64,000 nt of DNA, taken from an uncultured bacterium (GTDB lineage Bacteria > Patescibacteriota > Gracilibacteria > Absconditabacterales > Absconditicoccaceae). Where the stretch lies: NCBI GenBank assembly GCA_947170225.1, contig CAMVSQ010000004.1:1-64000 (forward strand). Direction: 5' to 3'. Shown piece by piece: positions 22,317 through 24,282 of this stretch. Under the pieces are notes generated by a model. The model had not been told where the DNA came from, made no database searches, and saw only the letters and a program-made list of their open reading frames with translations. The stretch's first letter is position 1. The number at the start of each line of letters is the position of its first letter. The position numbers and the translations under genes were made by a program.

Positions 22317-23504
22317 ATGAAATTTTTTGTGTGGATTGATGAAATTTTGGCAAAAATAATGATATTGCTAATCAAAATATATCAAAAAACATTGTCTCCA
22401 GATAAATGAATTTTTTCTCCGATATTTAGAGGAAAAATTTGTAGTCATGAACCACACTGTAGCGAATATTCTGCTCAAGTATTCAAAAGATATGGTTTTA
22501 TTTCATGATTTCCCAAGATGATTGAAAGAGTCTTTAACTGCAAGTGATCAAATGAAAAAATCTATGATCCAGTTTATTACAAAGTAGTATTTTTTTCGTG
22601 AGCGCCGATTTGAGTGCCATTTTTGAAAGAATTACAAAAAGACAAAAGATTTGATGTGGTGGGAGTAGTGACCATGCCAGATGCTCCAAGTGGTAGAGGG
22701 ATGGAAATCAAACCAAACATAATCAAAAAAACGGCAACTGAACTTTGAATTTCTGGTGTCCAAACTCCAAATTCGATTCGTCTAGACTCAGCCAAATATG
22801 GATTAGAAGCTAAAAATTTCTTTGATTGGCTGAAATCCAAAGATGTGGATTTTTTGGTAGTGATAGCATATGGAAAGATTATGCCAAAAGAGATTTTGGA
22901 TTTGGCACATTTTGGGGCGATAAATGTACATGGATCGATTTTGCCAAAATATCGTGGAGCTAGTCCGTTGCAGTCAGCTTTTTTGGACTGACAAAAGGAG
23001 TCTGGTATTACAATCATGAAAATGGATGAAAATATGGATACAGGAAATATGATTGATGTACTAAAATTTCCGCTGAAATTTGACTGGACTGTGGAAGATT
23101 TGATTGATTCAGTGATGACTAAATGACCAAAATTTCTAAACGATACTTTAGTTCATTATGCCAAATGATTACTTGGGGAGGTAAAACAAGATGATTTAAA
23201 AGCCACATACTGCAAAAAATTTGAAAAACAAGATGGTGAAATTGATCCGTTTGGAGATGATTTGGATTTGATTTACAAAAAGTATAGATGATTTTTTATG
23301 TGGCCAAAAATTTATTTTGTTTTAAACTGAAAGAGAGTACTAATTGAAAGCATGAAATTGTATGAAAAAACTTTTGCGGAAAATAGGGGCAAAGTTTTGA
23401 TTGAGGGAAAATTTTTGAATCCATGTGTGGTAGATATAGTTTTTAAGCCTGAATGAAAAAAGGGCATGGATTGGATTTCGTTCAAGGCTTGATATTTGAA
23501 ATAA
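22317..23504 (+). CDS. YidD-Fmt fusion: membrane insertion factor joined to methionyl-tRNA formyltransferase
   Basis: 395 residues in one open frame. Residues about 13-85 match YidD (DUF37): ILLIKIYQKTLSPDKG, PHCSEYS, KRYGFISGF, ERVFNCKGS and YDPV; YidD helps YidC insert membrane proteins. Residues about 86-395 match Fmt, which formylates Met-tRNA: YKVVFFSGAPIGVPFL, MPDAPSGRG, catalytic NVHGSILPKYRGASP (Asn about 203, His about 205) and MDENMDTGNMI with the aspartate. No start codon or stop interrupts the join; the junction is YDPVYYKVVFF. Fusing these two proteins is not an arrangement I know. It could bring formylation close to membrane-protein synthesis. TGA glycines occur in both halves. 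Confidence 0.9.
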
Positions 23505-23530: not shown

Positions 23531-23689
23531 GAAAAATTCTTCCCCTAAGGGGAAGTTGTATTGCGGAGCTAGTTGGGGGTTGTAACCCCCTCACCTCCGC
23601 AATTCTGCGAGGGAGCTCCCCAAAGGGGAGCGATACCCCCTCAGTCCTTTTGGACAGCTCCCCAAAGGGGAGCGATACCTTTCAGTTTG
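23531..23689. repeat. About 160-bp direct repeat F, copy 1 (left of the DUF559 gene)
   Basis: Begins gaaaaattcttcccctaagg and ends cgatacctttcagtttg. Contains ccccta/taggggaa, gttgggggttgtaacccccct-type and cccgcaattctgcgggg-type stems, and the unit ctccccaaaggggagcgata twice. It starts 27 bases after the YidD-Fmt stop codon. Near-identical copy at 24123. Confidence 0.9.
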
Positions 23690-23755
23690 TGGTAATAGAA
23701 TGAAAGCAGAGTTATTTTTACTTGAATAGAGTGATTTTATATAATTTACACAATA

Positions 23756-24121
23756 ATGAGCATACTCTTATATAATTGAAGAAATCTTGCATATGCTAGA
23801 GAAAATAGAAAAAATCCGACTAAAACTGAATGATTGGTTTGGAATATGATTTTGAAATGAGGGAAAACCTGAACAAAATTTATGAGACAAAGAATGATTG
23901 GACCATATATTGTAGATTTTTATTCCAAAGAATTGAAATTAGTTGTTGAAATAGATTGAGAGAGTCATAATTATAAACAAGAGTACGATGAAAGGAGAGT
24001 GAAATATTTGAAATATTTATGATTAGAAGTTTTGATTTATACAGATGAGCAAGTTTTATGAAGTTTGGAATGAGTTTGTGAGGATATAAATTGGCATGTG
24101 AAAACGAAACAGAGTAGTTAA
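23756..24121 (+). CDS. DUF559 endonuclease-like protein between direct repeats
   Basis: 121 residues of the DUF559 (Vsr/PD-(D/E)XK-related) family: NPTKTEGLVWNMIL near residue 20, KFMRQRMIGPYIVDFYS, and the acidic strand LVVEIDGESH (about residues 67-76), which carries the D...ExD metal residues expected in this fold. Glycines include TGA (GESH, GLEV). It starts 66 bases after repeat F1 and its stop codon lies 1 base before repeat F2. The repeat-gene-repeat layout suggests that the nuclease travels with or acts on these repeats, as RAYT proteins do with REP elements; that is inference. Small cytosolic protein, no export signal. Confidence 0.85.
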
Positions 24122-24122
24122 G

Positions 24123-24282
24123 GAAAAATTCTTCCCCTAAGGGGAAGTTGTAGTGTGGAGCTAGTTGGGGGTTGTAACCCCCTCACCCCCGCAATTCTGC
24201 GGGGGAGCTCCCCAAAGGGGAGCGATACCCCCCTCAGTCCTTTTGGACAGCTCCCCAAAGGGGAGCGATACCTTTCAGTTTG
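24123..24282. repeat. About 160-bp direct repeat F, copy 2 (right of the DUF559 gene)
   Basis: Same orientation as copy 1 with only a few differences (for example gtagtgtgg versus gtattgcgg, and ccccc versus cccc). The copies lie 592 bp apart, enclosing the DUF559 gene. Confidence 0.9.

Follow-up and report, generated by a model that had tools for sequence, protein, structure and literature searches.

A fused YidD–methionyl-tRNA formyltransferase protein in the Absconditabacteria (SR1)

YidD is a membrane protein insertion efficiency factor that is widespread in bacteria, and methionyl-tRNA formyltransferase (FMT) is an old enzyme that is thought to act in the cytosol. The Absconditabacteria, or SR1 group, are tiny predatory or parasitic bacteria. 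In E. coli, crosslinking in insertion assays connected YidD with the SecYEG network (Yu 2011, cited in PMC8082313). A preliminary description of the locus examined here stated that the two families have no known link, which was borne out, as the literature searched pairs YidD with a formyltransferase nowhere in this sense. Our literature search likewise found no description of a YidD-formyltransferase fusion, which annotation databases may list, and none is mentioned in the Vampirococcus genome paper. Both families are known; their combined architecture appears to be undescribed within the literature searched.

A single frame with YidD and FMT domains

We analysed a window of 64,000 nucleotides, the whole stretch of DNA under study, from a genome of 952,577 bases in 24 contigs (G000) in which TGA encodes glycine, a code documented for Absconditabacteria/SR1 in PMC8080830. 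Translation with NCBI table 25 gave one 395-aa frame, reading each of its 13 TGA codons as Gly, with the following features:

22317..23504, plus strand: fused gene yidD-fmt, 395 aa, ATG to TAA in genetic code 25, with whole-length relatives
22353..22574, plus strand: YidD domain, aa 13-86 (PF01809, TIGR00278; model helices 2-25, 34-37 and 48-73)
aa 2-25, plus strand: amphipathic N-terminal helix of YidD, from the model
22566..22583, plus strand: junction D84-P85-V86-Y87-Y88-K89, from the alignment of 29 fused proteins
22581..23144, plus strand: FMT catalytic domain, aa 89-276, with N203, H205, D241 and R127 (PF00551, invariant columns, structural matches)
22743..22760, plus strand: FMT surface loop, aa ~143-148, the insertion site in relatives; the window gene has no insert
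23220..23405, plus strand: FMT C-terminal domain, aa 302-363 (PF02911)

The reported presence of YidD and FMT in one frame was confirmed, since all three Pfam domains scored over their cut-offs: 55.3 bits for YidD (PF01809, cut-off 27), 114.2 for Formyl_trans_N (PF00551, gathering score 26.1) and 26.5 for Formyl_trans_C (PF02911, gathering score 21.1). The protein also obtained 58 bits with the YidD family TIGR00278 (cut-off 40), and its top equivalog by far was the NCBIfam fmt model TIGR00460, with 198.2 bits, just below the cut-off of 201.5, which a relative (L035) surpassed with 213.5 bits.

The junction, first estimated at about 22560-22590, falls within that interval. Its sequence is K-I-Y-D-P-V-Y-Y-K-V-V-F-F, in which the terminal DP of YidD directly abuts strand 1 of FMT, with no linker, and it was gapless in 28 of the 29 aligned fused proteins; the exception (G012) has DPVP intact, followed by a linker of 10 residues. 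Another relative (G026, locus L030) is about nine residues longer in the C-terminal YidD loop, ahead of the DP, the sole such indel among the 29 sequences. The window gene has no ATG, GTG or TTG near the start of FMT, and a start codon lies six or fewer codons upstream of strand 1 in just three of 39 fused genes, leading us to reject a separate internal FMT start as a conserved feature. Many fused genes do contain an ATG 8-11 codons upstream of FMT, where minor internal initiation may occur in some species.

An AlphaFold2 model of the full window protein, built from 50 sequences, reached a mean pLDDT of 95.3 and a pTM of 0.90, and placed the YidD helices ahead of the FMT fold with no flexible linker; the placement of the two domains relative to each other was predicted from a single alignment containing few fused rows. 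The best solved structural matches to the FMT half were all FMTs (4iqf, 3r8x and 2fmt, the latter with its tRNA). A sequence search for a solved YidD structure found none.

Distribution and origin of the fusion

The preliminary description had proposed looking for the fusion in relatives, and we searched with the whole protein the 49 genomes of the family, which comprise every genome of the order in the collection used. There was one uninterrupted match to the whole protein in 33 genomes; in six more, both halves shared a frame and FMT contained an additional domain. In a further two (G029 and G032), contig ends interrupt the fused gene at points downstream of its junction. The fusion thus occurs in 41 of the 41 genomes with an assembled junction, from 19 genera, including all 26 high-quality genomes and three single-contig genomes (G001, G002 and G042). 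The locus was missing, or cut by a contig end, in the remaining eight, none of which contained a separate complete YidD. We found no case of YidD and FMT as separate genes among the order genomes searched, nor a second YidD over the cut-off (a second match in G011 falls below it). The fused gene is the only YidD and the only FMT of its genome.

A base error at the junction, which had been named as a possible refutation, is ruled out because independent relatives carry the same fusion. More generally, the draft state of the genome would leave room for a junction created by assembly or sequencing errors, or for a misread genetic code; however, the number of genomes and genera involved, three of the genomes being single contigs, the ungapped junction in nearly all aligned proteins and purifying selection on both halves within one frame (see below) reduce the probability of such an error to practically nil.

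Outside the order, we found YidD in 141 of 159 sampled genomes of the class, with the matches listed corresponding to short frames of 74-231 aa, which leave no room for FMT too. There, FMT is a separate gene that matches the fusion query from about residue 85 onward. Candidate fusions in other class genomes were discarded, because the longer FMT matches in some of them mostly cross in-frame stops, with YidD located elsewhere. A phylum sample of 286 genomes besides that of the window (25 of them shared with the class sample, leaving ~260 beyond the class) returned only YidD or only FMT, and no fusion, among the matches listed for a two-domain query. In a scan of the genome collection, YidD was present in only four of the best 80 matches, all from the group of this order. 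The fusion, being order-wide and absent from the genomes sampled outside, looks like the product of one event at the root of the order; from these distributions, it most likely arose once in an ancestor of the Absconditabacteria/SR1 and then became fixed, and we found no reversal in the sampled genomes of the order.

In the other class lineages that we read (L128, L129, L134, L138, L146, L148 and L156), the standalone YidD had neither a yidC neighbour nor an rnpA-yidC operon, and was accompanied by LysM-protein, purH-like, ruvA-like or protease genes, as named by eye.

We also considered that the fusion could be neutral or economical, with two adjacent genes merging by the loss of a stop and a start and with halves that work independently, devoid of functional coupling. 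This would suit small genomes, such as the window genome of about 0.95 Mb, in which each half remains individually recognisable and conserved, and the junction costs either domain almost nothing, with one protein (G012) even tolerating a linker. Nevertheless, equally small Patescibacteria have the two genes apart, no split occurred among the 41 genomes, and simple co-residence does not predict the changes in the YidD half at sites that are invariant in the class (see below), making this explanation fairly unlikely. Economy in a small genome, as originally suggested, is likewise weak as a full explanation for a fusion that is fixed in at least 19 genera with shuffled neighbourhoods. These neighbourhoods contain no consistent partner gene of yidD-fmt within the order, and no conserved neighbour ties the fusion to insertion.

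Domains inserted in the FMT loop and a mobile-looking neighbour

Six relatives with complete genes contain an in-frame domain inserted at the FMT loop, at a position equivalent to aa ~143-148 of the window protein. The insert is an RBBP9/YdeN-like serine hydrolase (PF06821) in four of them (G007, G036, G045 and G024; 21.7 bits in G036, just below the cut-off of 22), a DUF559 domain in G006 and an unassigned domain in G017. Among the truncated genes, that of G029 contains two hydrolase-like stretches in tandem at this loop, and that of G032 has a partial match to a hydrolase there. The loci with inserts (L032, L033, L034, L035, L036, L037, L256 and L257) belong to several genera, and those carrying a hydrolase are dispersed across the gene tree. 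Because these carriers have insert-free sisters, the sequences suggest that mobile domains repeatedly enter housekeeping genes in frame. The same type of hydrolase also occurs inside SecA in G017 (L258). A structural model of the hydrolase-bearing form of FMT had low confidence within the insert. Additionally, an unfused 370-aa FMT from the Patescibacteria STB_112 (L098) matched the fusion profile in two parts, split after profile position 158, perhaps reflecting another insert near the same loop outside the order.

Just downstream of the fusion, at 23531-24282 of the window, we found palindromic G/C-rich repeats and a DUF559 gene (23756-24121) flanked by 110-nt direct repeats (23531-23640 and 24123-24232, 96% identical), a region that resembles a small mobile element. 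A DUF559 domain also lies inside the FMT of G006.

The two halves and their possible coupling

The catalytic residues of FMT, N203, H205 and D241, which we take to be the equivalents of the E. coli catalytic Asn, His and Asp of the formyltransferase superfamily, were invariant in the 29 fused proteins, as was R127. The genome contains a single initiator-type anticodon arm, GGGCTCATAACCC, which is part of a tRNA-Met with a GGG/CCC anticodon stem and G2:C71, C3:G70, G4:C69 and a weak U1:A72, these four pairs corresponding to formylation determinants of the E. coli initiator tRNA. Peptide deformylase and YidC were found in 47 and 45 of the 49 genomes, respectively, at other loci than the fusion. 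With such a tRNA, deformylase and YidC in place, both a formylation-deformylation cycle and the insertion machinery are present, and the FMT half is predicted to be active on Met-tRNAfMet.

Estimates of dN/dS between related pairs without inserts (Nei-Gojobori, code 25) ranged from 0.01 to 0.13 for the YidD half and from 0.04 to 0.15 for the FMT half, showing strong purifying selection on each.

We compared the YidD domain of the 29 fused proteins with 27 standalone YidD from the class. The fused domain keeps YQ, SPD, C42, P46, C48, S49, Y51, R71, C75 and D84, with C42, C48, C75, S27, P28 and S49 invariant in the fused proteins and present in at least 93% of the standalone ones. Conversely, it gained H44 (invariant), H47 (97%) and R58, and lost H30, W70, R74, N76, W78, G81 and G82, which are nearly invariant among the standalone class proteins; all of these but H30 are replaced in 90-100% of the fused sequences. 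As a result, the fused domain lacks the C-terminal pattern WR-x-x-R-C-N-P-W-x-x-G-G-x-D, which defines the class relatives compared, not the Pfam family. W70 and R74 are located in, or just past, the long YidD helix, and the losses next to the junction may reflect the fitting of the YidD C-terminus to FMT. Residues C42, H44, H47, C48 and C75 form a possible metal site. The N-terminal helix is amphipathic (muH 0.44, vs 0.50 in standalone YidD) and the domain is basic (pI about 9.5, mean net charge about +6.6), resembling standalone YidD in both net charge and amphipathicity.

Since near-invariant residues of the class are gone, the fused YidD may no longer do the job of YidD. The half might now serve FMT as an accessory domain, for instance in RNA or tRNA binding, as a metal-stabilised scaffold or in ribosome docking, its insertion role being gone. 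The loss of W70, R74, N76, W78, G81 and G82, the two gained histidines, which yield C42-H44-H47-C48 plus C75 in a domain that stays under strong selection, and its positive charge would agree with this. Nonetheless, the domain retains its amphipathic helix, YQ..SPD and the C-P-CS-Y core, and these genomes contain no other YidD to assume the original role; we consider such a repurposing unlikely. In short, the lost residues favour a changed role and the retained helix favours continued membrane contact.

The reading that we prefer, while holding it only evenly balanced between true and false, is that of an ancestral, order-wide bifunctional protein in which YidD tethers FMT to the membrane in the vicinity of Sec/YidC and thereby couples formylation to membrane-bound translation. 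The fusion would have arisen once in the ancestor of the Absconditabacteria/SR1 and become fixed; the basic, amphipathic YidD half would lie along the inner surface of the cytoplasmic membrane, close to the site of Sec/YidC insertion, and would keep FMT there, such that initiator Met-tRNA would be formylated beside membrane-bound ribosomes. The preliminary description had already suggested that formylation might be localised. We infer both the membrane location of the fused protein and its contact with the insertion machinery. Tethering, independent co-residence and repurposing of YidD are not separated by the data.

Because the sole FMT of these cells is fused to a membrane-insertion helper, protein start-up may occur at their membrane. 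In its strictest form, formylation in the Absconditabacteria would be confined to the membrane, with the sole FMT anchored at the insertion site by the YidD half and initiation spatially coupled to insertion, a tentative proposal that we regard as possible though somewhat unlikely. Membrane-coupled start-up of translation would perhaps concern mainly membrane proteins. As a 'Rosetta stone' link, a fusion fixed across an order predicts a physical or functional tie of initiator-tRNA formylation to membrane insertion, and the YidD-FMT protein offers a direct test object for YidD and FMT alike.

With YidD (PF01809/TIGR00278), the fused protein shares the amphipathic N-terminal helix, YQ-x-x-x-SPD, C-x5-C-S-x-Y, R71, C75 and D84. 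However, standalone YidD is a free protein of 70-90 aa, and the fused half lost WR-x-x-R-C-N-P-W-x-x-G-G and gained H44 and H47. With FMT (TIGR00460; E. coli 1fmt/2fmt), it has in common the catalytic N- and C-terminal domains, the N/H/D residues, the Arg of the GRG loop and the fold (TM about 0.8 when normalised by target length), differing in its N-terminal YidD domain and in the lack of a start codon of its own for FMT. ArnA (formyltransferase plus decarboxylase) and 10-formyl-THF dehydrogenase, both structural neighbours, likewise join a formyltransferase to a second domain; in those enzymes the formyltransferase is N-terminal and its partner metabolic, whereas here a membrane-insertion factor occupies the N-terminus and the predicted substrate is the initiator tRNA.
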